Shown: piece after piece, positions 5,980-30,064 of the stretch
Layout: every line of letters begins with the position of its first letter
Position numbering within the stretch: position 1 is the first letter of the stretch
Source: an uncultured Lachnospiraceae bacterium
GTDB taxonomy: Bacteria > Bacillota > Clostridia > Lachnospirales > Lachnospiraceae
Direction: 5' to 3'
Length of the DNA stretch: 49,158 nt
Assembly (NCBI GenBank): GCA_902792005.1
Contig: CADAXW010000008.1
Span: forward strand, 1 to 49,158
Made by a program: the position numbers and the translations under genes
The notes under the pieces: generated by a model
Database searches by the model: none
What the model was told of the DNA's origin: nothing
Seen by the model: only the letters and a program-made list of their open reading frames with translations

Positions 5980-6042
5980 TCGAATCGCCCCCTTTTTCAA
6001 GCGTTATCGTTCCATGTCCCCATTTTTTTTCATAACGCTTCA

Positions 6043-6951: not shown

Positions 6952-7627
6952 CGATATACCCTCCCTTCTCCACGTCACTTACGATAACGCCTTTCTTAAG
7001 GGTGATCACTCGCTTTTTCATGGCATTTACAATTTCTCTGTTATGGGTTACCACCACTACCGTGGTTCCCTTTGCGTTGATGTCCTCCAGAAGATTCATT
7101 ACTTCCCAGGTATTCTTGGAGTCCAGGTTACCGGTGGGCTCGTCTGCCAGGATGATATCCGGCTTGTTTACCAGTGCACGGGCCAGAGCCACTCTCTGCT
7201 GCTCTCCACCGGACAGCTGTCTGGGATAGGATTTATACTTGTCAGCAAGTCCAACCAGTGTAAGCATTGCCGGCACCTGCCGACGAATATATCTTGCAGG
7301 TGTTTCGATAACACGCTGCGCAAACGCTACATTTTCATATACGGTTCGATCCTTGATCAGTCGGAAGTTCTGGAATACGAATCCCAGCTTACGGCGGACC
7401 TTCGGGATCTGACGGCGCTTCAGCTTTGAATAGTCAAAGCCTGCCACCTTGATCTTACCCTTCGTCGGAACCAGCTCCCGGAGCATAAGCTCCAGCATCG
7501 TGGTCTTTCCTGAACCGGAGCTTCCCACGATAAATACGAATTCGCCCTTCTCGATATGCAGATTTACGTCCTTCAGGGCGAGGGTTCCGGTCGGGTACTT
7601 CATAGTTACATTTTCCATTGTAATCAT
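6941..7627 (-). CDS. ftsE: Cell division ATP-binding protein FtsE
   Basis: A 228-aa ABC ATPase. Walker A is GSSGSGKT (35-42), the signature is LSGGEQQRVALARAL, and Walker B is IILADEPTGNLD, followed by the switch His in VVVVTHN. The ATG follows GGAAGGA with 7-base spacing. FtsE pairs with FtsX at the septum and drives the wall hydrolase encoded next (4522-5979). It lies 37 bases downstream of the PucR-type regulator gene, with no terminator seen between them, so the two may share a transcript. Confidence 0.97.
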   Translation of the reverse strand: MITMENVTMKYPTGTLALKDVNLHIEKGEFVFIVGSSGSGKTTMLELMLRELVPTKGKIKVAGFDYSKLKRRQIPKVRRKLGFVFQNFRLIKDRTVYENVAFAQRVIETPARYIRRQVPAMLTLVGLADKYKSYPRQLSGGEQQRVALARALVNKPDIILADEPTGNLDSKNTWEVMNLLEDINAKGTTVVVVTHNREIVNAMKKRVITLKKGVIVSDVEKGGYIDED

Positions 7628-7664
7628 AATGGTATCCTTCCACTTGTTTCATTCAGAGACGCGG

Positions 7665-13030: not shown

Positions 13031-13053
13031 GCGCCTTGGATCCTCAGTTTTTT
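13011..13053 (+). terminator. Terminator overlapping the end of the CARF nuclease gene
   Basis: TGAGGATCCAGGGTGC (13011-13026) pairs with GCGCCTTGGATCCTCA (13031-13046), 16 bp with two G-T pairs, closing a 4-base loop. GTTTTTT follows. The loop contains the stop codon (13028-13030), so the last five codons form one arm. It lies just beyond the end of the convergent dnaB gene and may work weakly in that direction. Confidence 0.9.
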
Positions 13054-14389
13054 ATTTCTCCAGGTTTGCAAATCGGGTGAACTTGCCCTGCCATGCAAGA
13101 TCGATGGAGCCTGTAGAACCATTTCTCTGCTTAGCCACGATGATCTCGGCGATACCGGGCTTTTCCGAGTCTTCATTATAATAGTCGTCACGGTAGATGA
13201 ACATAACCACGTCCGCGTCCTGCTCGATGGAACCGGACTCACGCAGATCTGCCAGTACCGGCTTATGATCCGTTCTGGAGTCCACGGCACGGTTCAACTG
13301 GGAAAGTGCAATGACCGGAACCCCAAGCTCCCGGGCCAGACCCTTCAGTGCACGGGATACCTCTGCAACGAACTGCTGACGGGACTCCACCCTGCCGGTG
13401 GCATTCATCAGCTGCAGGTAGTCCACGATGATCAGTCCGAGATTCTGTGTCTGCTTCAGCTTTCTGCATTTGGACCGGAGCTCCGGGATGGTGATGGCGG
13501 AATTATCCTCTATGAAGAGGGGCGCAAATGCCAGTCGCTCCGTACTTTCTATGATATCATCCCAGTTCTTATCCGTCAGTTCACCGGTACGGATCGCCTG
13601 GGCGTCCACCAGGGCATCCATTGCGATCATACGTGTTACCAGCGACTCCTTGCTCATCTCAAGGGAGAAGATAACCGTCGGTACCTTCTCATTCAGGATC
13701 ACGTGCCTTGCCATATTTAAGACAAGGGCGGTTTTTCCCATGGCAGGACGTGCTGCCACCAGGATCAGTTCTCCTTTATGTAAACCAGTCAGTTTCCGGT
13801 CCAGATCGATAAATCCTGTGGGAAGACCATTGATCTTTCCATCCTTTCGGGCCGCCTCTTCAATCTCTCCCACCACATCCGTGACGATCTGCTGCATGGG
13901 AACAAACTCTCCCTGACGGTTCTTGGACTGTGCCAGGCGGAAGATGGATTCCTCGGCCCGGTCCACGAGATTGTCGACCTGACCCTGTCCCTCATAACAT
14001 TCCTTCGCTATCCCGTCTGCGGTGCGGATCATTTGTCTGAGAAGTGACTTGTCCCGAATGATCCTTGCATAATCCGTGGCAAAGACCGAATTATCACTGG
14101 AAGCCACGATATCCCGGAGGAAGCTCATACTGTAAAGGGTCTCAGGAGCTCCCATGGAGCGGAGGCGCTCGGCAAGGATCACCTCATCCACCGCTTTTCC
14201 CTCGGAGTGCAGACTGCAGATACCCTCAAAAAGGATGCCGAACTGGCCGTTATAGAAGTCCTCCTTCACCAACATACCGCTGACATCGGAGATCGCATCC
14301 GCATCCATCAGCATGGAAGCGATCACACTCCGTTCCGCGTCGGAATCGTGAGGCATTATCCTTTTTACTGTATTCTCCGTTTCTGCCAT
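13052..14389 (-). CDS. dnaB: Replicative DNA helicase DnaB
   Basis: A 445-aa hexameric 5'-3' helicase that unwinds DNA at the replication fork. The N-terminal DnaB domain (about 12-115) is followed by the RecA-like motor (about 175-440). Walker A is AARPAMGKT (212-220) and Walker B is LIIVDYLQLM; the DnaB motif SQLNRAVDSR is also present. The ATG begins one base after the rplI stop (TAG-T-ATG) and uses AAAGGAAG inside the rplI end. The gdpP-rplI-dnaB order is common in Firmicutes. It is the last gene of a tight run that begins at 25626. Confidence 0.98.
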   Translation of the reverse strand: MAETENTVKRIMPHDSDAERSVIASMLMDADAISDVSGMLVKEDFYNGQFGILFEGICSLHSEGKAVDEVILAERLRSMGAPETLYSMSFLRDIVASSDNSVFATDYARIIRDKSLLRQMIRTADGIAKECYEGQGQVDNLVDRAEESIFRLAQSKNRQGEFVPMQQIVTDVVGEIEEAARKDGKINGLPTGFIDLDRKLTGLHKGELILVAARPAMGKTALVLNMARHVILNEKVPTVIFSLEMSKESLVTRMIAMDALVDAQAIRTGELTDKNWDDIIESTERLAFAPLFIEDNSAITIPELRSKCRKLKQTQNLGLIIVDYLQLMNATGRVESRQQFVAEVSRALKGLARELGVPVIALSQLNRAVDSRTDHKPVLADLRESGSIEQDADVVMFIYRDDYYNEDSEKPGIAEIIVAKQRNGSTGSIDLAWQGKFTRFANLEK

Positions 14390-14390
14390 A

Positions 14391-14837
14391 CTAAGCTTCC
14401 TTTACATTTACCAGCAGCTCAGCCGTCACCTCCGGATGGAGTTTTACGCCTACCTTATAGCTGCCCAGCCCCTTGATGGGGTCCTTTACCTGTATCTTCT
14501 TCTTGTCAATATCAAGTCCCAGCTGCTTCTTCACCAGCTCTGCGATCTCCTTGGAGGAAATGGAACCGAAGGCTCTTCCACCCTCACCCACCTTGATCTC
14601 GGCGGTAACGGACTTCTCCTTCAGCTGCTCAGCCAAAGCCTTCGCATCTGCCAGATTCTCAGCAGCCACCTTGGCATCATTCTGATTCTTCAGCTTCAGA
14701 TCGTTCAGGTTCTTGGCATTCGCCTCAACACCCAGTTTCTTCGGAAGCACGAAGTTCCGCGCATATCCCGGGTTTACCTCTACGATCTCGCCCTTCTTCC
14801 CCAGTGATTTCACATCCTGCAGTAATATAACCTTCAT
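14391..14837 (-). CDS. rplI: 50S ribosomal protein L9
   Basis: A 148-aa bL9 of normal length. The N-terminal 23S-binding domain carries the L9 signature (about 1-40: [16 protein letters not shown], then [11 protein letters not shown]). A long helix (about 42-75) connects to the C-terminal domain. The gene sits 33 bases after gdpP and one base before dnaB. Confidence 0.98.
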
Positions 14838-14870
14838 TTTATAACCTTACCTTTCCAAAACAATTTCAGT

Positions 14871-16916
14871 TTAAATGCTTCCCTCATCGGACATCTGCTT
14901 TAAGATATGCCGAAGCTTCAGGAAGAATTCTTCTTTTGTGGTATCCTTCACCTGTGCGCCTGCCACAGTGGCGTGACCGCCGCCGTTGAACCGCTCCATG
15001 ACCAGCTGAACATTTACGTCGCCGATGGAACGTGCCGACACGTAGAGGATTCCATCCTCTCCCTCGGTCACAACGAAGGATGCCTTCACATCTTCTACAT
15101 TTAACAGTTCATTTGCAGCCTTCGCCACAGGAACCGTAGGTGCCTCTGAGGAATCCGGATCCGGCTCCACATAGGACAGGGCGTAGCAGCCCATATAAAT
15201 CTCCGCGTTGCTGATTCCCTGCGCCCGCTCCTTCATGGAGACAAGGCTGCTGCGGAACATTTTTCTGACTCTTGTGATATCCGCGCCGCTCTTCCTGAGA
15301 TAGGATGCGGCCTCAAATGTGCGCACGCCCGTTTTATTCAGGAAGTTGTCCGTATCGATGAGGATACCGGAATACATGGCATCTGCTTCCACGGGACGGA
15401 TCTTCGGCTTAACGGAGATATACTGGAACATTTCCGTGATCATCTCGCAGGCCGAGGATGCAAAGGGCTCGATATAGGAAAGCGTTGCATTCTCGATGGG
15501 CTCGTTGGACTGCCGGTGATGATCGAAAACCACCACGGTGGAAACCATTTCCAGCAGTTCTTCGCACTCTGTCATGCTGGGACGGTTTACGTCGCAGACA
15601 ACCACCATGGTAGATGCGTCCACCATGGACAGGGCCTGTCCGCTGGATACGATCATATCCGAATAAACATTGCTGTTCTTAAAGCTGTTCACCAGAGGCG
15701 CGATGGCGTCGGTTTCGCCGTTCAGCACGATATATGCCTTTCTGCCCAGGGTGGTTACCAGCCGGTGGATACCCACTGCAGAACCGAAGGCATCTGCATC
15801 CGGCCGCTTATGGGCCATGATCAGAACCTTCTCCTTATTCTCCAGAAGCTCCTCAAAGGCCTGTGCCTTAACGCGGGCCTTGACACGGGTGGTCTTCTCC
15901 GTTCCGGTACTCTTACCGCCGTAGTAGGAAACCTGCTCGTTAAACTTCAGGGCTACCTGATCACCGCCACGGCCCAGAGCCAGGCCGATGGCAACCTTCG
16001 CATTTTCAAAGGCCTCCGTAAATGTCTCGCTGCCGGCTCCAATACCGATGGACAGCGTCATGGGGATATCATTTCCCACGTTGATACTCTTCACATCATC
16101 CAGCAGTGAGAAGCGGTCCGACTTCAGCGTCTGCATATATTTCTGACGGAATACGAAGAGATACTTATCGTTCTCCAGGTGTCTTACGATGGCGTCGATG
16201 TTGGTAAGATACATGTTGATCTTCCGGTCAACCAGAGCGGTCAGGATGGAGTGCTTTACCTCCTCCAGAGAATTCATGACCTCATCATAGTTGTCGATAT
16301 AGACCAGACCTGCGATCAGCTTCTGATCATAGGTCTCCTGCTCCAGGCGCTTCTCGTTGGTCACATCAAACATGTGCATGACAAGCACCAGATCCTCTTC
16401 CTTGTCACTGGAATCCTCACCAAACACAGTGGACAGGTCCACCCTGCGGATCACTGCATTGTACTTCCGATCATGCAGATCCACATCCATGGAGATCTCC
16501 CCTTCGATATCATCCAGGGCCTCCGGCGTCAGATCCGGGATGTAGCTGTCGATCCTTCGCTGGAGAAACTTCTTCTCGTTCATTTCAATGGCGCGATAGA
16601 ATTTCGCATTTGCCCACATGACCTTTCCATCCATATCCATCAGGACATAGGGTACTGCCAGACCATGCAGCAGCTCCTTCTGCACCTTCCCCTGTTCCAG
16701 GGAATAGTCCACCATGGTGGACCGGAACACCGGCATCAGACGGTTGTACGCGAAAAGCACGATCAGGATGTAGGCTGCCACGATAATAGCCGTGATGATG
16801 GTCTCTCTGGAATCGATCCCATACTGGACGATGATAACAACCAGAAGGATCATCGCCAGTAATATGGGAAGCAGCGTCAGATATTTTATTTTATTCCGCA
16901 TTCTTCTGCTATTCAT
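14871..16916 (-). CDS. gdpP: GdpP-type cyclic-di-AMP phosphodiesterase
   Basis: A 681-aa membrane protein that hydrolyses c-di-AMP and so adjusts potassium and osmolyte balance and wall homeostasis. Two TM segments (about 8-30 and 36-57) are followed by a PAS-like domain (about 75-175), a degenerate GGDEF domain (about 175-310), and DHH (about 345-500) with DHHA1 (about 585-675). Motif I is HKRPDADAFG (about 353) and the DHH motif FDHHRQSNEP is near 460; the glycine-rich FNGGGHATVAG of DHHA1 is intact. The ATG follows GAGGGAG. It lies 24 bases downstream of valS. Confidence 0.95.
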   Translation of the reverse strand: MNSRRMRNKIKYLTLLPILLAMILLVVIIVQYGIDSRETIITAIIVAAYILIVLFAYNRLMPVFRSTMVDYSLEQGKVQKELLHGLAVPYVLMDMDGKVMWANAKFYRAIEMNEKKFLQRRIDSYIPDLTPEALDDIEGEISMDVDLHDRKYNAVIRRVDLSTVFGEDSSDKEEDLVLVMHMFDVTNEKRLEQETYDQKLIAGLVYIDNYDEVMNSLEEVKHSILTALVDRKINMYLTNIDAIVRHLENDKYLFVFRQKYMQTLKSDRFSLLDDVKSINVGNDIPMTLSIGIGAGSETFTEAFENAKVAIGLALGRGGDQVALKFNEQVSYYGGKSTGTEKTTRVKARVKAQAFEELLENKEKVLIMAHKRPDADAFGSAVGIHRLVTTLGRKAYIVLNGETDAIAPLVNSFKNSNVYSDMIVSSGQALSMVDASTMVVVCDVNRPSMTECEELLEMVSTVVVFDHHRQSNEPIENATLSYIEPFASSACEMITEMFQYISVKPKIRPVEADAMYSGILIDTDNFLNKTGVRTFEAASYLRKSGADITRVRKMFRSSLVSMKERAQGISNAEIYMGCYALSYVEPDPDSSEAPTVPVAKAANELLNVEDVKASFVVTEGEDGILYVSARSIGDVNVQLVMERFNGGGHATVAGAQVKDTTKEEFFLKLRHILKQMSDEGSI

Positions 16917-16940
16917 AGATCTCCCTCTTGGTCCCGGGAC

Positions 16941-19607
16941 TTATTTTCCCAGGGCGTTCAGGCGCTCCAGCACCTGTGCATAGGTCTCTTTATACTTCTG
17001 CAGCTTCTGCTTTTCTTCTTCTACCTTTGCCGCGGGGGCCTTGCTGATGAAACGCTCGTTGCCAAGCATATTCTCACCGCGCTTGATCTCGCCCTCCAGA
17101 CGCGCCTTCTCCTTTGTGAGACGCTCCAGTTCCTTCTCGGTATCTACCAGATCCGCAAAGGGCATGTAGAGAACCGCATTGTGGATGACTGCGGATACCG
17201 CATCCTCTGCGATCCCTGCCTTATCTGCCTGAACCAGCACTTCACCGGCATAGGCCAGAGGTGCAAAGAAGTTCTTTGTCTCTTCAAAAAGATCGCGCAG
17301 CTCCTTTTCTTCTGAAACAACAATGACGGAAGCCTTCTTTGAAGGCGGTACATTCATGTCTGCACGTACATTTCGGATGCTGCGGATGGCTTCCTTCAGG
17401 ATGTCAGTATGACCTTCCTCCTCCGGGAAGCGGTACTCCTCCTTATACTCCGGCCAGCTGGAGATCATGATGGACTCCTCACCGGTCAGCGTACAGAAGA
17501 TCTCCTCTGTAACGAAGGGCATGTAGGGATGCAGCAGCTTCAGCGTACTGGAAAGAACGGTCCGAAGCGTGAACAGTGCAGCTGCCTTGGTCTCATCCGA
17601 ATCATCCCAGAGTCTGGGCTTCACCATCTCGATATACCAGTCGCAGAACTCCTCCCACAGGAAGCTGTAGATCTTATCTGCCGCGATACCCAGCTCGTAC
17701 TTCTCCATGTTCTCGGTCACATCTCGAACCAGGGTGTTGCACTTGCTGAGGATCCAGCGATCTGCCAGCGTCAGCTGATCCGTTGTTACCGCATCGATGG
17801 CTGCGGGATCTGCCTTGTCAATATTCATCATGATGAAACGGGATGCGTTCCATACCTTATTTGCAAAGTTCCGGCTTGCCTTCACACGCTCCCAGTAGAA
17901 ACGCATGTCGTTGCCCGGCGCATTTCCGGTGATCAGTGTGAAGCGAAGTGCATCTGCACCATACTGATCGATGACATCCAGAGGATCAATACCATTGCCA
18001 AGGGACTTGCTCATCTTCCGACCCTGATCATCACGGACAAGTCCGTGGAACAGTACGGTGTGGAAGGGAAGCTTTCCTGTCTGCTCGATGGATGAGAATA
18101 CCATACGGATGACCCAGAAGAAAATGATATCGTAGCCCGTTACCAGTACGTCTGACGGGAAGAAATACTTGAAGTCCTCATTCTCCGTATCCGGCCAGCC
18201 CACGGTTGAGAAGGGCCACAGCGCCGAGGAGAACCAGGTATCCAGTGTGTCCGGATCCCGTGTCAGCTTCTCGCCTCCGCACTTCGGACACTTGCAGGGC
18301 TCACCGTCCACTGCCGGATTCACTACGATGATCTCACCGCAGTCGTCGCAGTACCAGGCCGGGATCTGATGACCCCACCAGAGCTGTCTGGAGATACACC
18401 AGTCACGGATGTTGTCCAGCCAGTTGTAATATACTTTGTTCATACGCTCAGGAACCAGACGGAGTTCACCCTTCTCCACTGCTTCCTTTGCGGGCTTTGC
18501 CATTTCCTCCATCTTTACAAACCACTGAGGCTTTACCAGAGGCTCCACCGTGGTTCCGCAGCGGTCATGGGTTCCTACCATATGGGAATGAGGAACCACC
18601 TTCACCAGAAGTCCCAGTTCCTTTAAGTCCTCTACGATGGCTTCTCTTGCCTGATAACGCTCCATGCCGTCATACTTGCTGCCGGCCAGCTTGATGGTGG
18701 CATCATCATGCATGATGTTGATCTCTTCCAGACCGTTTCTCTTACCAACCTCAAAATCGTTGGGGTCATGGGACGGTGTGATCTTAACACATCCGGTTCC
18801 GAATTCCTGATCCACATAGCTGTCTGCGATCACCGGAATGGTACGTCCGGTAAGAGGCAGTTCCAGCATCTTGCCGACGATATCCTTATAACGCTCATCC
18901 TCCGGATTGACTGCAACTGCAGTATCACCCAGCATGGTCTCCGGACGGGTGGTGGCGATCTCTACGAAACGCCCCGGCTCCCCTACCACCGGATAGTTGA
19001 TATGCCAGAAGAATCCATCCTGCTCTTCATGCAGAACCTCTGCATCCGAGATGGATGTCTTGCAGACCGGACACCAGTTAACGATCCTGGAGCCCTTGTA
19101 GATCCAGCCCTTATCATAGAGCTTTTTGAAAACGGTTCCTACCGCCTTGTTATTTCCTTCATCCATGGTGAAGCGTTCCCGCTGCCAGTCTGCAGAGGAA
19201 CCCATGCGCTTCAGCTGCTGGATGATCCGTCCGCCGTACTCTGCGCGCCACTCCCATGCACGCTTCAGGAAGCCCTCGCGTCCCAGGTCCGTCTTTTCGA
19301 TCCCCTGTTCCCGGAGTGCGTTGATGATCTTGACCTCAGTAGAAATCGCCGCATGGTCCGTACCCGGCTGCCACAGCGCATTGTAACCCTGCATCCGCTT
19401 CATACGGATCAGGATGTCCTGCATGGTATTGTCCAGGGCATGTCCCATGTGCAGCTGTCCCGTGATATTCGGGGGCGGCATCATGATGGTGAAGGGCTTT
19501 TTGCTTTTGTCCACCTCTGCATGAAAATAACCTGCATCCTCCCATTTCTTATAAAGCCTTCCCTCGATCTCCTCGGGGTTGTAATTCTTTTCCAGTTCCT
19601 TGGTCAT
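16941..19607 (-). CDS. valS: Valine--tRNA ligase
   Basis: An 888-aa class I aminoacyl-tRNA synthetase that charges tRNA-Val. The HIGH-type motif HMGH is at 53-56 after PPPNITGQL, and KMSKS is at about 529 in GRKMSKSLGN. An editing domain lies between them, and the C-terminus has the coiled-coil tRNA arm (KEKARLEGEIKRGENMLGN). The ATG follows AAGGAG. Only 26 bases separate it from the 277-aa gene upstream, so there is no room for a T-box; it is probably transcribed from the promoter at 25.7 kb or from an unseen internal one. Confidence 0.98.
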   Translation of the reverse strand: MTKELEKNYNPEEIEGRLYKKWEDAGYFHAEVDKSKKPFTIMMPPPNITGQLHMGHALDNTMQDILIRMKRMQGYNALWQPGTDHAAISTEVKIINALREQGIEKTDLGREGFLKRAWEWRAEYGGRIIQQLKRMGSSADWQRERFTMDEGNNKAVGTVFKKLYDKGWIYKGSRIVNWCPVCKTSISDAEVLHEEQDGFFWHINYPVVGEPGRFVEIATTRPETMLGDTAVAVNPEDERYKDIVGKMLELPLTGRTIPVIADSYVDQEFGTGCVKITPSHDPNDFEVGKRNGLEEINIMHDDATIKLAGSKYDGMERYQAREAIVEDLKELGLLVKVVPHSHMVGTHDRCGTTVEPLVKPQWFVKMEEMAKPAKEAVEKGELRLVPERMNKVYYNWLDNIRDWCISRQLWWGHQIPAWYCDDCGEIIVVNPAVDGEPCKCPKCGGEKLTRDPDTLDTWFSSALWPFSTVGWPDTENEDFKYFFPSDVLVTGYDIIFFWVIRMVFSSIEQTGKLPFHTVLFHGLVRDDQGRKMSKSLGNGIDPLDVIDQYGADALRFTLITGNAPGNDMRFYWERVKASRNFANKVWNASRFIMMNIDKADPAAIDAVTTDQLTLADRWILSKCNTLVRDVTENMEKYELGIAADKIYSFLWEEFCDWYIEMVKPRLWDDSDETKAAALFTLRTVLSSTLKLLHPYMPFVTEEIFCTLTGEESIMISSWPEYKEEYRFPEEEGHTDILKEAIRSIRNVRADMNVPPSKKASVIVVSEEKELRDLFEETKNFFAPLAYAGEVLVQADKAGIAEDAVSAVIHNAVLYMPFADLVDTEKELERLTKEKARLEGEIKRGENMLGNERFISKAPAAKVEEEKQKLQKYKETYAQVLERLNALGK

Positions 19608-19633
19608 TGTATTATTACTCCTTACATTGGTTT

Positions 19634-20467
19634 TTAAACGATCTGGTCCCTAAATTCGTCTTTTAGTTGCGTCAGGATGATATCCATTCGCTTGTCATAA
19701 TCCGTCATATCCTTATGCATCCGGTTGTAGATGGCTCTCTGAAGCATGGCGTAGATCGTCATTTCCCGGACGTCATCCTTGGAATCTCCGATCTCCATCA
19801 TGATATCCTCGAAATAGCGCTCGGAGAGTCCCATCTTGTGGACCTCTGACTTCAGGGTCATGATGTCCTCCGTGGCGGAGACCACATAGAAATAGCTCTT
19901 CAGGGATTCCTGATTTCCATTCAGGTCGTAGGCCTTCAGGAAGAACTTCTTTGCATCCTCGGTATCCAGGTTGTTGGCTGCTGCCACCGCCCGGTTGTGA
20001 TATACATTTCCGAGGAATTCCCGATCCTGGATCTCAGCCTCCTGCTGAATGATCCCGTCATAAATGATGGAGGCACGGATGAATCTGCGATATCCCAGAT
20101 ACCCGTCCGCCTTCAGCTTCTCTCTCTGAATGGGAGAAAGCTTTCTGTATTTCTGCCATGCAGCCGCATAGGTCTTGACCTCCTCGGGCGTGTAATACTC
20201 GCCTGCATTCAGGATCTCTACCAGAAGATCCTGCACAAAGGGGGTTTTGTTGGCCAGACCCACCAGCCGGTCTGCCAGCTGAGGCATATCCAGTTCATCC
20301 CGGATCCAGGTCCAGAGACGGTCGGACAGGGCTGACTTGGAGATCAGCACGGTATTGTTGTAGATATAGAAGCAGAGCTCCTCATAGGTATAGATCTCAA
20401 CCTTCGTATTCAGGAAGGTGAAAGGAGTCTCTGCCTGCTTCGTTGTACATACGATCAGCTTTGCCAT
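19634..20467 (-). CDS. Uncharacterised 277-aa protein of the DUF5717/5716 cluster
   Basis: I do not recognise the family. There is no signal peptide or membrane segment, so it is probably cytoplasmic. The N-terminal part (about 1-90) has alternating strands and helices (AKLIVCTTKQ, VEIYTYEELCFYIYNN). The remainder is helical with a TPR-like stretch (about 148-190: VYHNRAVAAANN, AKKFFLKAYDLNGN). Its ATG lies inside the last codons of the upstream gene (13-base overlap), and it is followed after 26 bases by valS. Overlap and order argue that it works with the two large proteins upstream, perhaps as a subunit of one assembly. Confidence 0.85.
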   Translation of the reverse strand: MAKLIVCTTKQAETPFTFLNTKVEIYTYEELCFYIYNNTVLISKSALSDRLWTWIRDELDMPQLADRLVGLANKTPFVQDLLVEILNAGEYYTPEEVKTYAAAWQKYRKLSPIQREKLKADGYLGYRRFIRASIIYDGIIQQEAEIQDREFLGNVYHNRAVAAANNLDTEDAKKFFLKAYDLNGNQESLKSYFYVVSATEDIMTLKSEVHKMGLSERYFEDIMMEIGDSKDDVREMTIYAMLQRAIYNRMHKDMTDYDKRMDIILTQLKDEFRDQIV

Positions 20468-21720
20468 GTAATGGAAAACTCCTTTCTGTAGATCTTATTC
20501 GTGGTGGGGAACAGCTTGCCGAAGCCCAGATCCCGTATGATCACAGCACCGTCCGTGGGATTCTCGAATTCCACCTCCAGGGACAGCTTCGTGGTCTTGT
20601 TGGGCCGCTTCGGTATGCCGTGGATCTTCACCACCTCCCGCTTCTCCTCATCGGTATGACGGCTGCGGTAAACCAGGGTGATGGTATCCGTATCATCCAG
20701 GATCACAAAGATCTTGCCCCGGATGTTATACCACTGCTTTCCGCCGTTCACGATGGGAACGAAGGTATCCTTCTCGTCGTCCAGGGAAAGTCCCACGTCA
20801 AAGAGTACATTTTCCTTGGTCTCCACAAAGAACTGGTCATAGAAGGCCTTATACTCTCCTCCGACAGCCCGGTAGCATGCACCCTTTGTATAGATATTCT
20901 GTCCCACAAACACCCTGCGCCCCTGGCACAGTACATTTGTGGACTTCTTCATCCACTTGTTGGTAAAGCCCACTCCCGTCAGATAAACTGAGGAAATGTA
21001 GGCCTTCTTCATCTCATAATCTGCGATCTTCGCAAAGTCCACATCCATCTGATAGGTATCATTTCCGTACTGGCTGAGGGACATCTGGGAGGAATAATCC
21101 TCGTGGGTCACCGTCACCAGCTTGGGACTCCGATTCCTGGAAATGTCGATCCGATAATAATTCAGTCCGTCCGCATTATAATCATACAGGGCCACGGAGT
21201 TGATCCAGAGTCCCTGCTCCTGATTGAAGATATAGAAAAGTCCGCTGTCCAGATGGCTTGTGATCTCCACTGCCTCCTCCGGCACATCCATCAGCTTGTA
21301 AAGCCCGGAAAGCAGCTGATAGATCCTGCTGTTATACTCCGGGACGGAGATCACCAGCTTGCGGATGGTGGCGTCCTCATAACGGTACAGGAAGGAGTCG
21401 ATATGAAGCTTCACCATTTTCACGAACAGGTCCGGATAGGTGTAATCCTCTCCCTCCACGGAAACCGTGTCATTGCTTTCCAGATTCTCGAAAATGCCGT
21501 CAATGATGATACCCTCTTCATTGAAACGGGCCTCGGAGGCCTCACCGCCCACGTACCAGTGGCCGGTCTCCGTGCTGTGGAACAGGATGTTCGGCATGAG
21601 ATAGGTTTCTTTATTATTCAATTGGCTGACTGACTCGGGTTCCCGCTTGATATCATTATAGTAGGACAGCTGGGTAAAATCCGAGCATAGATCCATTCCG
21701 ATGTAAAACGCGTCCGCCAT
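20455..21720 (-). CDS. Degenerate Hsp70/actin-fold-like protein (DUF5716-like)
   Basis: A 421-aa protein, possibly DUF5716 (recalled, not checked). The N-terminal part looks like a divergent DnaK/actin-fold nucleotide-binding domain: FYIGMDLCSDFTQLSYY (5-21) sits where phosphate-1 (IGIDLGTT) is expected, SVALYDYNADGLNYY resembles phosphate-2, and SVYLTGVGFTNKWMKK followed by RRVFVGQNIYTKGACYRA resembles the adenosine motif and following helix. Key Gly/Thr residues are replaced, so ATP binding is uncertain. The C-terminal part (about 300-421) is strand-rich and may be a beta-sandwich. There is no signal peptide. It begins 21 bases after the 1294-aa gene and overlaps the 277-aa gene by 13 bases. 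Confidence 0.85.
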   Translation of the reverse strand: MADAFYIGMDLCSDFTQLSYYNDIKREPESVSQLNNKETYLMPNILFHSTETGHWYVGGEASEARFNEEGIIIDGIFENLESNDTVSVEGEDYTYPDLFVKMVKLHIDSFLYRYEDATIRKLVISVPEYNSRIYQLLSGLYKLMDVPEEAVEITSHLDSGLFYIFNQEQGLWINSVALYDYNADGLNYYRIDISRNRSPKLVTVTHEDYSSQMSLSQYGNDTYQMDVDFAKIADYEMKKAYISSVYLTGVGFTNKWMKKSTNVLCQGRRVFVGQNIYTKGACYRAVGGEYKAFYDQFFVETKENVLFDVGLSLDDEKDTFVPIVNGGKQWYNIRGKIFVILDDTDTITLVYRSRHTDEEKREVVKIHGIPKRPNKTTKLSLEVEFENPTDGAVIIRDLGFGKLFPTTNKIYRKEFSITWQS

Positions 21721-21741
21721 AGGTTTCCTTCTTTCTTTGTC

Positions 21742-24700
21742 TTACAGTAACGTCAGGTTCTCCTCGAAGAGGTGAACGGTATTGATATATACGTCCAGAT
21801 CCTCCAGCAGCTCCTTGTCCTTGCGCATTTCCTGTTTTACCAGCATGCTGTTGATCATCTCGAATCGGTTCAGGTCCTGCTTGTTGTAGGACTTCTTCTT
21901 CAGAACCTCGCTCTCCACGATCTGTGCGTTGCCGTCGGGATCGTCCTCGATGCTGTATACCAGACGTTCTCCGTGGAATACCACAAACTCCATAACATAG
22001 AGTCCGCTGACCACTTCCTCCATCCGGTGAACCTTGGTCATCTCCCGGGCTCTCACGCCGGTTCCCGTGCTGTAACGGACAAATACCTGCCGGCGATTCT
22101 CCGACTTGTAGATCAGATACGTCTTCAGGAATACATCCTGCGGCAGCTCCAGGAAGGAAGCAAAGCTCTTGTAGAAGGGCAGGATCTTTCCGGCATCCAC
22201 AAAGCGGAGCGCCGTGTCCGTGATCCATTTCTTCTGCTCATTGGTATAACGCTCCAGGCGGCTGAAATAGAGAAGCAGCGCCATGGAGGATATCTCGTCG
22301 TCGATATTCCCCTTCATGATCTCGGAATAAAGGGCCTCGAAGATATAGTTCGGCACCTGCATATCCTTGATCAGGTAATTGTGAGCGGCCAGCCGGAGGA
22401 ATGCCTTTACTACAAGGCCGCGGCTGCGTCCGTTATAGTAGGTGGCAAAGATATCGTAAATGTACTCCAGGTGCTCGCCCGCAAACATCATCTGTGCCAG
22501 GGTGTTCTCTGCCAGAGATCCCACATCTGCCACCTTATCCTTTGCCAGCTTGAACAGGCCTGCCAGCTCGTCGATGGAGCCGTTAAAGTTCATGACCATG
22601 TAGGTCAGGATATTGGCATTGACTGTTCCCGTCTTATACAGGTTCAGGCAGATGGACATCAGGTTCTCGTTCAGGAAGCCCTCGGAATCCTCCACACCAT
22701 AGTCTGCCAGACGATACAGCTCCCGGACATCCAGCTCGTTGAAGCCGTACAGCTTTACCGCCTCAAATGCCTTATCGAACAGGTTCATGTCGATGAGGTA
22801 GGTGATGATGGTGCGCGCATTTGCGTGAGTCAGATATTCGATATCCAGCCGGCGCAGATACTTGATCAGCACATCCGCATCCCGGTTCTCGTGATAATAC
22901 TCAATGATATCCAGGCATGCCTGCTGCTTGTAGTCGTCGGAGATCTCCTCACAGTTGATGATCTCCCGCGCCGCATTTACCTCGCGGGCGTTCTTGTAGG
23001 TAAACTCTCCGATGCTCTCGTAGTTATAAAGCAGTACCCGGTAATCTCTGGGACTGTACTCCCGGCAGATGGGGATGTATGCCTTTTCATCCACGATCCG
23101 CTCAAAGTGATAGGGAATGGATCCTGCGTAACGGTTTCCGTCCTTATCCTCGAAAATGATGGATGCGTTGTCCGAAAGGATCTCCACATAGGCTTCGCCG
23201 TCCACCAGCTGAACGTGCTGCACCTTGGACAGCTCGCCGTGGCTTACGATCACCGCACGGATATTCTTGTTGTAGCACACCAGCTTCCTGCGGAAGATGA
23301 TGTTGATCAGCTTGCCCGCAAACAGGGAGCTGACGGACTCCGGCTCCAGGAACTCATCATAGATCACCGTCAGGTCATCATTGACCTTGCCTTTCATGAT
23401 CATGCTCTCCATGAAGTCCTCCATGGTAGGTGCATATTCATGATAGATCTTCATATGCTCGGACTTGTTAAAGATCACATTTGCATAGAGATATGCAAGC
23501 TCATCCTCATTCAGGGTATTCTTGTAATTCAGGTACATCAGTACCGATGGCGGGATCAGCTCATAGTGCGTCCGGTCCATGCTTCGGATATAGCACTCGT
23601 TGAGGCCGATGAACTTCAGGGACTGCAGGACCGCTGCCTTATAGAACCGGTGATACCGGACATCCAGCATATTTGCGGAGATCAGCATGGAGCAGATGGA
23701 GCCCAGAACCTCCAGGTTCTCATTCTCCTTCTTCAGCAGACGCTCCTCCGCCTCGGCGTGGATGGTCTCATCAAACTTATCATCAAAGGACTGCTGCACC
23801 TTTTTGTCCAGCTGTTCCTCTTCTCTGTTGTATTCCTCATCTTCACTGGAAAGACGTAAAGGATCGCCCGGGGCGTTGATCTCCTCGCGGAGCTCCTCCT
23901 CCGGCTCGTCCTCATCAAAGCCGGTGAAAATGAAATCGTCCTCTTCCTCATCCGCGAAGGAGGGTGTTTCCTCCACAACCTCCTCTTCCTTCTCAAGGCT
24001 GTGGTGCTCGCGCATCAGGCGTTCCCGGCGGAGGACATCCTCATTCTTGTCATAGATGGAACGGAGCACATCAAAGATCTGCTTATTGAACTCCTTGTTC
24101 CGCCCTGCCAGCTTGACAAACTCATTCAGTACATCATCGGAAATGTAATTATGACGGAGTCCCCACTTGATGGTGGTGATCTCAAAGGGGGTCAGCCGCT
24201 TCAGCATCAGAGGATTCGCATTCAGGATATCGCAGAGCTCAAAGTAAATGATGGGGCTGTTTTCGCCCTCCTCGTACATTTCCGTCAGCTCACGGTACAG
24301 CGCGCCCTTATCCTCGCTGTAGACCGGATCCACAAAAAGCAGCAGCCAGAAGAAGAACATCTTCGGCTCCTGTGTCCGGTAGTTCCGGCGGATCATGTTG
24401 GCCGTCTTTTCCACGGTATCATCATCCCTGAGCATCATGGCCTTCAGGTAGCTGTAATAGCATTTCTCCTGATTGGTCATCAGACTCCGGTCCACATCCG
24501 CCTCGATGCGGACGAACTCCTGCTCCACCTTGGCATAGTCACCCTTCAGGATGTTCATGTGCATGACAGCAAGCCGGTACATATCCTCCTCCGGCTCCAT
24601 CTCCATCAGCACCCGCAAAGCTTCCAGGGTGTCGGCCACATACTCATCCAGCCCGATCCGATCCATACGGAAATCCAGATAGGCCTGGGTCAGATTGATG

Positions 24701-25626
24701 CGGCACTGCTTATATTCCTGTTCCTTCAGACGATTTTCCTGATCCATCCTGCGCTGCTTCGGCCGCTCCAGGTGAATCTCGATCTCGATCTTCTGGTAGA
24801 TATTCTCGACGATCAGTTTTCCGGTGTTCTCACCGTCCGGCACATGCTCCGGAGAGATATAGACCTGCAGATCACAGGAATTTGCCGTGAAATCTGCAGA
24901 AGTAAGGGTCTTCTTCGCCGGAATGATGAACTCCGCATTGCTGCGGATCTCAGACCGGGTATAACCCCAGGTATTCTTTGTCAGTGTTACAGAGATACTC
25001 TCTGTCTCGGCAGGCATGACCAGATCCAGTTTTGCCTTGTCGGTCGAGAGGGTCACGGTACGCTTTTTATGCACAAGAACCAGGAACTCCTCCATGGCCT
25101 GATCTACGGAGTGACTGTCCAGAAGACTCTCGTAAACCAGCTTCAGATGGGGTTCCCGATTGATAAATGTACGACGGAAGTCATCGCTCATGAACAGCCG
25201 CGTCGCCTCGGTCCAGTTACGCTCGGCCAGTGCGGCAAACTTGAACAGATCATCGATCCGCTCACTTCCGCAGGTAACGCAGGGCGGAACGATGCTGATA
25301 TCGTAGGGCAGACGGAATTCACCCCCGTCGGTGATCACATTTATGTGCCCACGGAAGTTCTGTCCTGCCTCAAGACAGGTTGCATCAAAGGAATAACGAA
25401 CCTCGAATTTTCGGCTGATAAAGCTGTGATTTTCGAAACGCAGCAGGTATCTGCTGTCATAGACCATGCCTTTGATGGGGTGCTTGTTCCGGCTCTCTAC
25501 CTGGAAGGCCCCCCAATATACGGTTCCCGCCTCAATACTGAGTTTAAAATTCTGTTTTGATATGTATACGTCCGGCCGGTCGATGCGAAAACCGCCCTTT
25601 GCATACTGTTCAACGATCGCCTTCAT
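21742..25626 (-). CDS. Uncharacterised 1294-aa helical-repeat protein (DUF5717-like)
   Basis: A very large cytoplasmic protein, possibly DUF5717 (recalled, not checked). The N-terminal part (about 1-300) is strand-rich; it has LSIEAGTVYWGAFQVES and a Cys pair in PPCVTCGS, like small beta domains. The middle and C-terminal parts are long helical repeats of solenoid/TPR type (for example MNLFDKAFEAVKLYGFN). They are interrupted by an acidic low-complexity segment around residues 570-640, rich in Glu/Asp. There is no membrane segment or signal peptide. I start at the ATG at 25626, which has GGAGAT upstream; the longer frame upstream lies in the promoter region. It is the first gene of a seven-gene run to dnaB. 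Confidence 0.88.
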   Translation of the reverse strand: MKAIVEQYAKGGFRIDRPDVYISKQNFKLSIEAGTVYWGAFQVESRNKHPIKGMVYDSRYLLRFENHSFISRKFEVRYSFDATCLEAGQNFRGHINVITDGGEFRLPYDISIVPPCVTCGSERIDDLFKFAALAERNWTEATRLFMSDDFRRTFINREPHLKLVYESLLDSHSVDQAMEEFLVLVHKKRTVTLSTDKAKLDLVMPAETESISVTLTKNTWGYTRSEIRSNAEFIIPAKKTLTSADFTANSCDLQVYISPEHVPDGENTGKLIVENIYQKIEIEIHLERPKQRRMDQENRLKEQEYKQCRINLTQAYLDFRMDRIGLDEYVADTLEALRVLMEMEPEEDMYRLAVMHMNILKGDYAKVEQEFVRIEADVDRSLMTNQEKCYYSYLKAMMLRDDDTVEKTANMIRRNYRTQEPKMFFFWLLLFVDPVYSEDKGALYRELTEMYEEGENSPIIYFELCDILNANPLMLKRLTPFEITTIKWGLRHNYISDDVLNEFVKLAGRNKEFNKQIFDVLRSIYDKNEDVLRRERLMREHHSLEKEEEVVEETPSFADEEEDDFIFTGFDEDEPEEELREEINAPGDPLRLSSEDEEYNREEEQLDKKVQQSFDDKFDETIHAEAEERLLKKENENLEVLGSICSMLISANMLDVRYHRFYKAAVLQSLKFIGLNECYIRSMDRTHYELIPPSVLMYLNYKNTLNEDELAYLYANVIFNKSEHMKIYHEYAPTMEDFMESMIMKGKVNDDLTVIYDEFLEPESVSSLFAGKLINIIFRRKLVCYNKNIRAVIVSHGELSKVQHVQLVDGEAYVEILSDNASIIFEDKDGNRYAGSIPYHFERIVDEKAYIPICREYSPRDYRVLLYNYESIGEFTYKNAREVNAAREIINCEEISDDYKQQACLDIIEYYHENRDADVLIKYLRRLDIEYLTHANARTIITYLIDMNLFDKAFEAVKLYGFNELDVRELYRLADYGVEDSEGFLNENLMSICLNLYKTGTVNANILTYMVMNFNGSIDELAGLFKLAKDKVADVGSLAENTLAQMMFAGEHLEYIYDIFATYYNGRSRGLVVKAFLRLAAHNYLIKDMQVPNYIFEALYSEIMKGNIDDEISSMALLLYFSRLERYTNEQKKWITDTALRFVDAGKILPFYKSFASFLELPQDVFLKTYLIYKSENRRQVFVRYSTGTGVRAREMTKVHRMEEVVSGLYVMEFVVFHGERLVYSIEDDPDGNAQIVESEVLKKKSYNKQDLNRFEMINSMLVKQEMRKDKELLEDLDVYINTVHLFEENLTLL

Positions 25627-25716: not shown

Positions 25717-25745
25717 ATTATAGCAGATTCGGCATTGTTTTGAAA
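25717..25745 (-). promoter_or_regulatory. Putative promoter of the trio-valS-gdpP-rplI-dnaB run
   Basis: On the minus strand a perfect -10 TATAAT (25722-25717) lies 17 bases from TTTCAA (25745-25740). The leader to the ATG at 25626 is about 85 bases. No other convincing promoter or terminator is visible before the end of dnaB at 13052. Confidence 0.55.
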
Positions 25746-28370: not shown

Positions 28371-30023
28371 TTACCGGTTTGTACAGACACCGGATTTATT
28401 AAACTTATAAACCTTGCCCTGGATCTTCACCTTGCCGGTGAGCATAACGCCCTTCTTGCCGGCCTTATTGCTGAAATAGTAATACTTGCTCTTATACTTC
28501 AGCCATCCGGTACGCATAGCACCGTCGCTGTTGAAGTAGTACTGCTTTCCTTTTATCTTCTTCCAGCCCTTGACCATGGCGCCGTCAGATGCAGCATAGT
28601 ACTTGTTTCCGTCACTGCTGATCCAGCCGGTCTGCATAACGCCCTGGGAGTTAAAGAAGTAGGTCTTTTTGCCTATCTTATTTACGCCGGTAACCATCTT
28701 ACCCTTGTTCAGATAGTACCACTTGTTGTTCAGCTTCATCCAGCCCTTGACCATCTTGCCGGCGGTATCGAAGTAATACCATCCGCCGTTGATCTCCTGC
28801 CAGCCGGTCTGCATAACGCCCTTGGAGTTGAAGAGATACTTCTCACCGTCCACTGTGATCAGGCCGGTGTCCTTCAGTCCCTTGGAGTTGATATGCCAGG
28901 TCTCTTTTCCCACATGCATAAAGGAGTTGTGGGGATAGGTATTGTTCTCCTTGGGAGAATTCACACGGATATGCATTACGTGCGCTTCCGTCAGTCCGCC
29001 GTGACATGCATAGCATGCAGGCCAGCGGTTGACCGTACCCACATTTCTGTTGTTATGGCAGTAGATCTTTGCGCAGCCGTCTTCACTCCAGCCCACAAAG
29101 AACAGGGAGTGAACAAAGGGTCTTCCGTCTGTACAATGAGGACAGTACAGAAGGATGGGGTCTCCTGCAGCGATCTCGCCGTGGGGAACATTCTCCAGCT
29201 TGATATAACCGTTATCCAGAGGAACCACGATCTCCTCGATCATGGGGTCATTCGCCAGCTGACCATGAAGGATCGTCGCATGATCGCTGTACTCCGGCAT
29301 ACCGCCCACCTTCAGACAGTTGGAAAGGAACTCCGCACACTGCCATCCGTAAATGCACTGGCTTCTTGCCAGGCCCTTGGACACATCCACTGCCGTATGC
29401 TCTTTCGCAAACTTAATGGCCTTGGCCGCATCATAGGTACGGCCCTGGAAGGTTTTGGATGTACTTCCGGATCCGGAGGTATCCACCTCTCCGGTCCACT
29501 GACCGTTGGGTTTGAAGTTGTGGAGCTTTCCGCCGATGACCTTCTGACCGGTAACCATCATACCCTTGCTGTTGAAGTAATACCACTTCTTGTTGATCTT
29601 CGTCCAGCCGGTCTGCATGATACCAAGCTTGCTGCTGAAATAATACCAGCTGTCATCCAGCTTCTTCCAGCCCTTCACAGCCGCTCCGTCCTCACCCAGG
29701 TAGTACCACTTGTTCTTTGACTCAAGCCAGCCGGTCTGCATGACGCCCTTCTTGTTGAAGTAGTACCGCTTGTTCTTGATCACCTTCCATCCGGTCTGCT
29801 TAACACCCTTCTTGTAATAATAATACTTATCACCGGATTTCACCCAGCCATTTTGGGACGCCATCACAACCGGCGTCTGTTTGGATAATACTCCGGTCTC
29901 ATACTGAGCCTGCACCGCATACTGCACCGTCGGAACGGAAGCCTCAGTGATCTGCGGCGTCGAAAGGGCGAGCGTACCCGCGATCAGCACCCCTGCAATT
30001 CCAAGTACCCAATTTTTTCTCAT
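28371..30023 (-). CDS. Secreted cell-wall-binding-repeat protein with putative amidase domain
   Basis: A 550-aa exported protein. A signal peptide (MRKNWVLGIAGVLIAGTLAL, cleaved near TEA) is followed by about five CW_binding repeats (about 55-180, GWKVIKNKRYYFNKKGVMQT type). A central enzymatic domain follows (about 190-355), and then seven or more further CW repeats to the end. The centre has QCAEFLSNCLKVGG, resembling the Cys-box of Amidase_6/CHAP-like amidases, and FVHSLFFVGWS with a later HNN; the candidate catalytic pair is Cys229 and His305. CW repeats bind teichoic acid or choline on the wall. I use the ATG at 30023, which has AGGTGAGG just upstream; an ATG at 30038 adds five residues. 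Confidence 0.85.
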   Translation of the reverse strand: MRKNWVLGIAGVLIAGTLALSTPQITEASVPTVQYAVQAQYETGVLSKQTPVVMASQNGWVKSGDKYYYYKKGVKQTGWKVIKNKRYYFNKKGVMQTGWLESKNKWYYLGEDGAAVKGWKKLDDSWYYFSSKLGIMQTGWTKINKKWYYFNSKGMMVTGQKVIGGKLHNFKPNGQWTGEVDTSGSGSTSKTFQGRTYDAAKAIKFAKEHTAVDVSKGLARSQCIYGWQCAEFLSNCLKVGGMPEYSDHATILHGQLANDPMIEEIVVPLDNGYIKLENVPHGEIAAGDPILLYCPHCTDGRPFVHSLFFVGWSEDGCAKIYCHNNRNVGTVNRWPACYACHGGLTEAHVMHIRVNSPKENNTYPHNSFMHVGKETWHINSKGLKDTGLITVDGEKYLFNSKGVMQTGWQEINGGWYYFDTAGKMVKGWMKLNNKWYYLNKGKMVTGVNKIGKKTYFFNSQGVMQTGWISSDGNKYYAASDGAMVKGWKKIKGKQYYFNSDGAMRTGWLKYKSKYYYFSNKAGKKGVMLTGKVKIQGKVYKFNKSGVCTNR

Positions 30024-30064
30024 AACCTCACCTGCCATTCTTTGTTATTTCTCTTTTCTCTCTC

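Follow-up and report, generated by a model that had tools for sequence, protein, structure and literature searches.

A gene trio of Lachnospiraceae encoding a putative ATPase-dead Hsp70 homologue, a predicted giant scaffold and a TPR-derived partner

Three adjacent genes in a 49,158-nucleotide stretch of DNA (the window) from an uncultured Lachnospiraceae bacterium encode a giant DUF5717 protein, a degenerate Hsp70 homologue from family DUF5716, and a small third protein. Our leading reading, in which our confidence is evenly balanced, is that the three genes specify a pared-down scaffold complex built around an ATPase-dead Hsp70, with ATP-independent docking like that of yeast Ssz1. We infer a mechanism in which the giant would serve as the platform, and the pseudo-Hsp70 would sit on it together with the TPR partner. 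The SBD-beta of the pseudo-Hsp70 would provide constitutive ATP-independent docking or a low-affinity client site, as in Ssz1 within RAC. Clients might then be passed to the cell's DnaK, or the parts of an assembly might be held together.

Gene layout and predicted folds

All three ORFs lie on the minus strand. A 21-base gap (21721-21741) separates the giant's gene from that of the 421-aa protein, which overlaps the gene of the 277-aa protein by 13 bases (20455-20467); these coordinates agree with the arrangement described in an earlier note on this DNA. The giant has an ATG at 25626, and its open frame extends to a TTG at 25878. Features of the region are as follows.

25717..25744, minus strand: promoter-like site upstream of the giant, its second hexamer preceded by TG (consensus match only)
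21742..25626, minus strand: giant putative scaffold, DUF5717_N plus DUF5717, 1294 aa (Pfam, hhalign, AF2 of the L137 homologue)
24766..25548, minus strand: two predicted N-terminal beta-sandwiches, ASH/HYDIN-like, residues 27-124 and 193-287 (AF2 of L137, Foldseek)
21748..24741, minus strand: predicted solenoids, beta domains and C-terminal helices of the giant (AF2 of L137, A4 mapping, Foldseek)
23734..23991, minus strand: acidic insertion in the giant at residues 546-631 (D or E at 36 of 86 positions)
20455..21720, minus strand: putative pseudo-Hsp70, DUF5716, 421 aa (Pfam 8e-95, AF2, PDB matches, hhalign)
20821..21720, minus strand: actin-like domain of nucleotide-binding type, about residues 1-300 (motif alignments, motif spacing, secondary structure)
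20467..20808, minus strand: SBD-beta-like eight-stranded domain, about residues 305-418, no lid after it (strands, DnaK alignment)
19634..20467, minus strand: small TPR-derived partner, 277 aa (hhalign to the operon TPR protein; fusions to the pseudo-Hsp70)
16941..19607, minus strand: valS (ORF; neighbour 26 bases downstream, outside the trio)

The neighbouring gene, taken to be valS by similarity, is possibly co-transcribed with the trio. A T-box separates the trio from valS in two of the 12 relatives searched (L086 and L087), which means that a separate leader for valS is possible. Control of the trio and valS by a tRNA-responsive element was considered and set aside, as the window gave no Rfam match. 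Promoter-like matches in the region do not exceed those in shuffled sequence (8 versus a shuffled mean of 11.9).

The family names given in the earlier note proved correct (DUF5716_C, E 8e-95; DUF5717_N, E 1e-275; DUF5717, E 2e-64). The giant scores 917.3 bits for DUF5717_N and 218.1 bits for DUF5717, where the cut-off is 25 (PF18983, PF18984). Its fold was read from the AF2 model of the L137 homologue (pLDDT 86.1, pTM 0.58) and mapped through alignment A4, which holds 44 of the 80 fetched loci plus the window. The model predicts two ASH/HYDIN-like beta-sandwiches, separated by a helical stretch, and TPR-like solenoids. A first alpha-solenoid (residues 296-771), containing the acidic insertion, is followed by a beta domain (779-843), a second alpha-solenoid (847-1167), a C-terminal beta domain (1169-1228) and helices (1254-1293). 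By Foldseek, the N-terminus matches ciliary central-pair chains, with a TM-score of 0.72 by target for 2e6j, a human HYDIN domain, and the solenoids match TPR scaffolds of the Ski complex, Ctr9/Paf1, Naa15 and APC/C; whole-chain TM-scores are low, at 0.07-0.13 of the query among the matches listed. The acidic middle segment described earlier does exist. It occurs in only seven of 45 aligned giants, and is regarded as an insertion because the other 38 have nothing at that place.

Profile alignment points to the 277-aa protein being a shortened form of a TPR protein. It aligns by hhalign with the TPR protein of a larger operon described below (99.8%, 1.5e-29, 176 columns), and its Pfam TPR_2 match (E 0.021) falls below the cut-off. 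In three genera (L093, L095, L103) the 421-aa and 277-aa proteins are fused into one.

Hsp70 homology and loss of the ATPase parts

That the 421-aa protein is an Hsp70 homologue, with a domain of the actin-like nucleotide-binding type and an SBD-beta, is well supported. The earlier note had proposed an actin/Hsp70 fold from the motifs MDLCSDFTQ and YLTGVGF, both of which are found in the protein, and structure prediction bears the proposal out. The AF2 model (pLDDT 91.5, pTM 0.88) shows an actin-like domain and an eight-stranded SBD-beta-like domain, with strands at residues 307-416, that was aligned with the corresponding domain of the host DnaK. All 50 PDB matches listed by Foldseek are Hsp70-family proteins or complexes containing one; among these, the best has an E-value of 4.2e-20, and RAC/Ssz1 (6sr6) and Sse1 (2qxl) are present. 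The protein scores 317.6 bits for DUF5716 (PF18980), where the gathering cut-off is 34.7. By hhalign, DUF5716 matches HspB, its orthologue in related families (100%, 7e-59), and HspC, a motif-intact Hsp70 encoded beside it (99.6%, 2e-24). The HspC profile, searched against 80 named loci, matched 75 ORFs, every one a DUF5716 orthologue (E 7.6e-16 to 6.6e-6). Profile searches, of the kind suggested in the earlier note, match DnaK at 4e-6 for DUF5716 and 1.9e-22 for HspB. An actin-type filament protein such as MreB or FtsA was rejected, as Pfam and NCBIfam gave no such match and the structural matches listed are to the Hsp70 family.

Statements about single sites rest on alignments, since the trio proteins drop to 20-30% identity between genera. 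Alignment A1 provides 26 DUF5716 rows (25 loci plus the window), and A3 holds 56 of the 80 fetched loci plus the window; the numbers Lys70, Met404 and Ala429 are what we take those positions to be. The GTT-type phosphate-1 loop and the GGGT phosphate-2 loop occur in none of 83 DUF5716 rows (80 without three duplicates) and are missing also from 11 of 11 HspB sequences, while both are present in 25 of 25 sequences of HspA, HspC and HspD, the intact Hsp70s. The Lys70 column holds lysine in 25 of 25 intact Hsp70s and in none of the 26 DUF5716 rows, of which two are gapped there. A segment the length of subdomain IIB is gone: motif spacing is 60-77 aa in all 26 DUF5716 rows versus 137-152 in the 11 HspB, and the helix and strand pattern of the AF2 model also shows the subdomain missing. 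Subdomain IIB closes the nucleotide cleft and is a surface where GrpE-type exchange factors dock. The AF2 model of the 421-aa protein has no helix past the last SBD strand that could represent an alpha-helical lid. At the Glu171 column, His, Arg, Lys or Tyr replaces Glu in 26 of 26 rows, a loss that is insecure because a shifted alignment could restore the residue through an acidic one found two columns beyond in 24 of the 26. The proposal that the protein is a pseudo-ATPase holds in these alignments, and its status as a pseudo-enzyme that has lost the ATP-splitting machinery is, at the level of sequence, well supported.

The nucleotide-sensing role suggested earlier for the protein fares less well. 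As a nucleotide-responsive switch, it would bind ATP or another nucleotide without hydrolysis and signal the level to the scaffold, and the motif-1 Asp (22 of 26 rows), the first Gly of the adenosine motif (26 of 26) and the acidic residue near Glu171 are consistent with this, as is Ssz1, which binds ATP without hydrolysing it according to an excerpt of PMC7083937. However, the second adenosine Gly is missing in 26 of 26 rows, subdomain IIB is missing, and, with neither phosphate loop left and no Lys70 position, nucleotide binding is doubtful. We regard such a switch as quite improbable.

Somewhat less improbable, but still unlikely, is a purely structural pseudo-Hsp70, one that binds no client and is simply a permanent component of some large assembly. 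HSP70 homologues serve structurally in the ciliary central pair and in closterovirus particles. The resemblance of the giant's N-terminus to central-pair proteins, and of its solenoids to large TPR scaffolds, fits this idea. So do a chain of the central-pair structure 7n6g, among the matches listed for the 421-aa protein and named HSP70A under the HspB profile, the closterovirus HSP70 homologues among viral matches, and the peptide-arch Met404 column, mostly unconserved and mostly polar or charged. Yet R372, D397, G399 and G401 of the SBD-beta (Arg plus DxGxG) are invariant in A1 and A3, where few positions are, and all 83 rows have a hydrophobic residue in the peptide-arch Ala429 column. This is more than a generic spacer needs; given the Met404 column, the SBD-beta may or may not bind peptides.

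Origin from a larger operon, conservation and selection

Outside Lachnospiraceae, 24 families of the order were sampled, and 11 of them carry HspB. In five of those 11 its neighbours are a TPR protein, a protein with a GrpE domain and three intact Hsp70s, one of which carries vWA. The best-preserved of these larger operons also holds DUF5717 split into two genes, and the giant aligns to the two separately (hhalign 100% each). All eight gene types are carried by the L031 lineage, and the larger operons of L031 and L036 have valS close by; G051 has DUF5717 and HspB only. In a phylogenetic tree the Lachnospiraceae proteins form one group (100/98) that joins L031 (100/100), with the direction of change resting on a tree that has several long branches and a drawn root. 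Among 60 Lachnospiraceae genomes, no match listed for the Hsp70-vWA protein passes column 540 of 692, and G093 has no match at E 1e-30. The large GrpE protein is missing from 60 of 60 family genomes, four of which match only its last 73-83 columns, and at E 1e-10 none of 291 genomes of the class has it (positive control, 11 of 24 order genomes). A J-domain partner was sought through the HPD motif and rejected: the three window proteins have none, the letters HPD appear in 2 of 76 relatives of the 277-aa protein, 0 of 80 of the 421-aa protein and 0 of 79 giants, and the larger operon has HPD only inside HspC of L032 and L036.

Ancestry of the trio from a larger chaperone operon is well supported, and the trio is best read as a multi-Hsp70 operon reduced. 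In the Lachnospiraceae ancestor, the intact Hsp70s and the GrpE protein would have disappeared and the two DUF5717 genes would have merged into the giant, leaving the scaffold, the pseudo-Hsp70 and the shortened TPR protein.

DUF5716 is present, essentially in single copy, in 290 of 293 good Lachnospiraceae genomes. Those without a match are G082, G135 and G141; G003 and G012, from the host's genus, also have none, and both assemblies are fragmented. Searching G082, G135, G141 and G003 again gave weak Hsp70-type matches only. In G011 (L046) DUF5716 is split over two frames, possibly through sequencing error. Across the class, DUF5716 occurs in eight of 196 genomes, all eight in Lachnospiraceae. 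The C part of DUF5717 occurs in 12 of 243, ten in Lachnospiraceae and two with a stretch of about 160 columns only, read as a TPR-like chance match; across the phylum it occurs in 4 of 299 at E 1e-10, all Lachnospiraceae.

The trio is contiguous wherever contigs permit (80 named loci, 30 divergent genera), so that the neighbourhood check put forward in the earlier note finds the genes nearly always adjoining. Distances between the trio proteins correlate at 0.986-0.992, with partial correlations on valS of 0.94-0.96 (0 of 999 permutations), over the 56 of 117 loci with all four genes full-length and unfused, where five locus pairs come from the same genome and up to five genomes may be counted twice. 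Contiguity, the fusions and lockstep divergence uphold the view of the trio as a multi-protein unit kept together. Joint inheritance of a linked unit would also produce the contiguity and the lockstep divergence. Change between genera is very fast for all three proteins (divergence of valS and the 421-aa protein was binned over 61 loci with both matched over half their length). Within the host's genus, trio dN/dS is 0.04-0.12, like that of valS, which indicates purifying selection; dS was 0.7-1.1, near saturation, L115 was unusable and L114 lacked valS.

These results bear on two further explanations. A decaying remnant on its way out would explain the lost catalytic partners and Hsp70 parts, the two frames in G011 and the five genomes without a match, but retention in nearly every good genome and valS-like dN/dS strongly disfavor it, and its probability is very small. 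A conflict or defence complex, akin to sets of HSP70, GrpE, second HSP70 and TPR/vWA genes, has a comparable parts list in the GAP1-N2 GTPase systems treated in a portion of PMC7159879, and the fast divergence between genera would suit it. A PADLOC scan of seven of the eight L036 operon proteins (all except HspC) gave weak matches to models of candidate defence systems, PDC-M61B for HspA and HspD (4e-5, 3e-6) and PDC-M71B for the TPR protein (2e-9). However, the trio drew no PADLOC match at E 0.01, neither it nor the L036 operon shows a GTPase or effector domain in Pfam scans, and purifying selection acts within the genus. A near-universal, essentially single-copy distribution is wrong for a defence island, and a defence system was rejected as improbable.

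Relation to known systems

Few bacteria of the gut are as abundant as the Lachnospiraceae. The pseudo-Hsp70 is present in nearly all those sampled, yet the trio proteins bear only the names DUF5716 (PF18980) and DUF5717 (PF18983, PF18984), to which they belong by score and which carry no function. Our literature search found no paper on these families; a match for the family names was a motif-search remark on human max. This anonymous core gene set poses a testable question, namely what role is left for an Hsp70 that no longer has an ATPase, an exchange-factor site or a lid. An operon of eight genes resembling the ancestor persists in neighbouring families, and the full operon, the DUF5717 and HspB pair of G051, the trio and its fused forms make a natural series for pseudo-enzymes taking structural roles.

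The larger operon shares HSP70 with GrpE, further HSP70s and TPR with the GAP1-N2 systems, as far as the excerpt of PMC7159879 describes them, but the L036 operon and the trio lack the GTPase core by Pfam, and the trio is near-universal in one family. The giant resembles HYDIN and the ASH/MSP and TPR scaffolds of the ciliary central pair in domain folds only. With DnaK/Hsp70, the 421-aa protein shares the actin-like domain, the SBD-beta and detectable homology; it differs in lacking the phosphate loops, Lys70, subdomain IIB and lid.

Yeast Ssz1 is a lidless, non-hydrolysing Hsp70 in RAC whose SBD-beta is held by a partner, as set out in part of PMC7083937. The 421-aa protein is likewise lidless with an SBD-beta, and RAC structures are among its matches listed, a likeness that need not reflect a specific relationship. 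Ssz1 keeps ATP binding, according to the same excerpt, and works with a J-domain partner, whereas the window trio has no HPD. It is possible, and we suggest this more tentatively than the complex itself, that the trio forms a core machine across Lachnospiraceae, working as a chaperone or as a platform for assembly without ATP. The multi-Hsp70/GrpE/vWA operon would have lost its ATPases, and the pseudo-Hsp70 would have become a constitutive client-binding subunit on an ASH/TPR scaffold. Bacteria would then have their own version of the RAC-type non-canonical Hsp70 complexes, one that includes no J-domain protein.

Layout and conservation of the gene trio

ORF calling reproduced the three genes at 19634-25626, together with the 21-base gap and 13-base overlap described in the earlier note. 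All lie on the minus strand and encode, in order of transcription, a giant protein of 1294 aa (DUF5717), a protein of 421 aa (DUF5716) and a protein of 277 aa. A valS-like gene begins 26 bases downstream of the trio, within a longer run.

13052-25626, minus strand: same-direction run with short gaps, comprising the giant, 421-aa, 277-aa, valS-like, 681-aa, 148-aa and 445-aa ORFs
13011-13046: hairpin of 16 pairs, listed as an opposite-strand terminator

The 681-aa, 148-aa and 445-aa ORFs are GdpP-like, rplI-like and DnaB-like, respectively. A promoter-like site occurs upstream of the giant; promoter-like matches around the trio are not commoner than in shuffled sequence. T-box leaders separate the trio from valS in two of the 12 relatives searched (L087, 7750-7945; L086, 2284-2524). 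None was found in the window, so valS may there depend on transcription of the trio. Elsewhere the window encodes a 555-aa choline-binding-repeat protein, likely a surface protein (28371-30038; Choline_bind_3, E 1.9e-65), and a 1398-aa protein with bacterial Ig-like domains (44820-49016; Big_13, E 1.4e-31).

Of 293 good Lachnospiraceae genomes, 290 carry DUF5716 (295 of 298 overall; 277 of 280 genera); only four genomes with it show more than one match. Within the genus it occurs in 34 of 36 genomes, and both that lack it are fragmented assemblies. By tblastn against 30 divergent genera, the giant adjoins DUF5716 in 29 and the 277-aa protein lies beside it in 28. The one locus without the giant (L097) is truncated at the edge of its contig; the two without the 277-aa protein (L096 and L104) yield it to profile searches. 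Of 80 named loci searched by profile, 79 have the giant and 76 the 277-aa protein; all five gaps coincide with the end of a contig or locus. Three of the 30 genera (L093, L095, L103) have DUF5716 and the 277-aa protein fused into a single ORF of 690-710 aa, the two profile spans lying in series. The gene valS falls within the fetched stretch, at times too short to reach it, in 48 of the 80 named loci and in half (14) of the 28 divergent loci for which tblastn also detected the 421-aa protein.

Outside the order Lachnospirales, samples of 196 and 243 genomes from the class and 299 from the phylum, rather than whole collections, yielded neither DUF5716 nor DUF5717, two short TPR-like matches being the exceptions. 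Searches of open-licence literature gave no paper on either family or its Pfam number, except for a motif-search remark on human max.

Folds of the three proteins

The 421-aa protein is a pseudo-Hsp70 that has lost its ATPase parts. Its Hsp70-like nature, proposed in the earlier note from worn motifs, is borne out by fold and profile alike. The AlphaFold2 model, made with 57 sequences, has pLDDT 91.5 and pTM 0.88; all 50 PDB matches listed are, by entry title, Hsp70-family proteins or complexes holding one, led by DnaK (E 4.2e-20) and including RAC/Ssz1 and Sse1. Profile comparison pairs DUF5716 with two Hsp70s of a larger operon found outside the family, at 99.6% with HspC and 100% with HspB. 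The profile of HspC, whose motifs are intact, retrieves 75 ORFs from the named loci, every one a DUF5716 orthologue.

The GTT-type loop and GGGT are absent from all 83 DUF5716 rows (80 without duplicates). Among 26 rows, none has Lys at the Lys70 column (two are gapped). Loss of Glu171 is less certain: none of these rows has Glu at its column, but 24 carry an acidic residue two columns further along. The phosphate-2 and adenosine motifs are 60-77 residues apart in these rows vs 137-152 in 11 HspB proteins, a shortening that matches a missing subdomain IIB of the nucleotide-binding domain (NBD). The lid, too, is absent from the model.

The substrate-binding beta domain (SBD-beta) is retained, with eight strands in the model. 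Its residues R372, D397, G399 and G401 are invariant in both the 26-row and 57-row alignments. In the peptide arch, all 83 rows have a hydrophobic residue at the Ala429 column and most have a polar or charged one at Met404, so peptide binding may be possible.

The giant, modelled through a 1188-aa homologue from L137 (pLDDT 86.1, pTM 0.58), has scaffold folds: a pair of beta-sandwiches is followed by two alpha-solenoids with a beta domain between them, then by a final beta domain and helices. By Foldseek, the N-terminal region resembles ASH/HYDIN-type domains found in ciliary proteins, and the solenoids resemble TPR scaffolds from the Ski, Paf1, NatA and APC/C complexes; whole-chain scores are low. 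The acidic middle segment that the earlier note ascribed to the giant does exist, but as an 86-residue insertion in just 7 of 45 aligned giants. In the 277-aa protein Pfam detects TPR below threshold only; profile comparison aligns it with the N-terminal part of the operon TPR protein (1.5e-29 over 176 columns).

The larger operon and the direction of change

The sample comprised 24 further families of the order, with one genome per family. HspB, the DUF5716 orthologue, occurs in 11 (best E 2e-141 or lower); in the other 13 the DUF5716 search reaches at best 2e-16, with generic Hsp70 matches. A large GrpE-domain protein is likewise found in 11 families, and one or both in 12. Four loci (L032, L034, L036, L038) share the order DUF5717 N, DUF5717 C, HspA, GrpE-ended protein (613-645 aa, GrpE domain at the end), HspB, HspC, HspD with a C-terminal vWA domain, and TPR protein; domains were assigned by Pfam in L036 and by alignment elsewhere, and L034 has one extra ORF. 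L033 has the same order from within DUF5717 C, so HspB stands beside three intact Hsp70s in five of the 11. HspA, HspC and HspD retain ATPase motifs; HspB lacks GTT and GGGT, yet its NBD is full-length.

L031 carries all eight gene types, with the vWA-Hsp70 and TPR genes each in two frames (6339-8383 and 5204-6230) and a short GrpE-type gene (279 aa). This closest outgroup with all eight may show early decay, or sequencing error. Two of the three Hsp70s are visible before the contig end in L035, L037 and L040. In one genome (G040) the set is split, with HspB and the GrpE protein at L039 and HspC, HspD and TPR at L042; near the latter lies a 2466-aa ORF (L042, 11777-19177) with a sub-threshold Pfam match only. 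Of the eight gene types, a 19-kb stretch in G051 contains just DUF5717 N, DUF5717 C and HspB (L041, 5316-10412), with no TPR and no other operon Hsp70; this looks like a further case of reduction, in a different family.

In a 47-protein tree the Lachnospiraceae DUF5716 proteins cluster together (100/98) and next join the HspB of L031 (100/100). Since an intact Hsp70 must precede a motif-less one, the trio is read as a reduction. The large GrpE protein is absent from 60 of 60 Lachnospiraceae genomes; in four, ORFs of 206-233 aa match no more than its final 73-83 columns, like ordinary GrpE. In the same 60, no match listed for the Hsp70-vWA protein extends beyond column 540 of 692. Subdomain IIB is a docking site of GrpE, and its loss coincides with that of the GrpE protein, which supports reduction. 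The details of the reduction are unsure, given the tree's long branches and drawn root. Fold, loss and ancestry of the pseudo-Hsp70 are very probably as described.

Joint divergence and the proposed mechanism

Within the genus, purifying selection on the trio equals that on valS: three comparisons (dS 0.7-1.1) gave dN/dS of 0.044, 0.067 and 0.107 for the 421-aa protein vs 0.069, 0.065 and 0.106 for valS. Beyond the genus, the identity of the 421-aa protein collapses relative to valS, its median falling from 76% at valS identities of 75-80% (31 loci) to 35% at 70-75% (7 loci) and 26% at 65-70% (15 loci). The three proteins evolve jointly, their pairwise distances over 56 loci correlating at 0.986-0.992, or 0.94-0.96 once valS distance is removed; none of 999 residual permutations reached the observed correlation for any protein pair. 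Such lockstep divergence fits a co-evolving complex, but it would also follow if the linked genes were simply inherited together.

Active Hsp70s are available in the window's genome, which encodes a DnaK-like protein of 619 aa and two further Hsp70s of 567-568 aa bearing GIDLGTTNS and GGGT (contigs C17, C2 and C4; loci L195, L196 and L197). On its scaffold platform the pseudo-Hsp70 would be an ATP-independent docking or client-binding subunit, a mechanism we hold tentatively, at somewhat under an even chance; the whole account, from fold, loss and ancestry through to mechanism, stands at about even. The main rival explanation is a purely structural role for the pseudo-Hsp70. For the docking mechanism the nearest precedent is Ssz1, described in passages of one paper as having no lid, performing no hydrolysis, and binding nascent chains through its SBD with its partner's help (PMC7083937).
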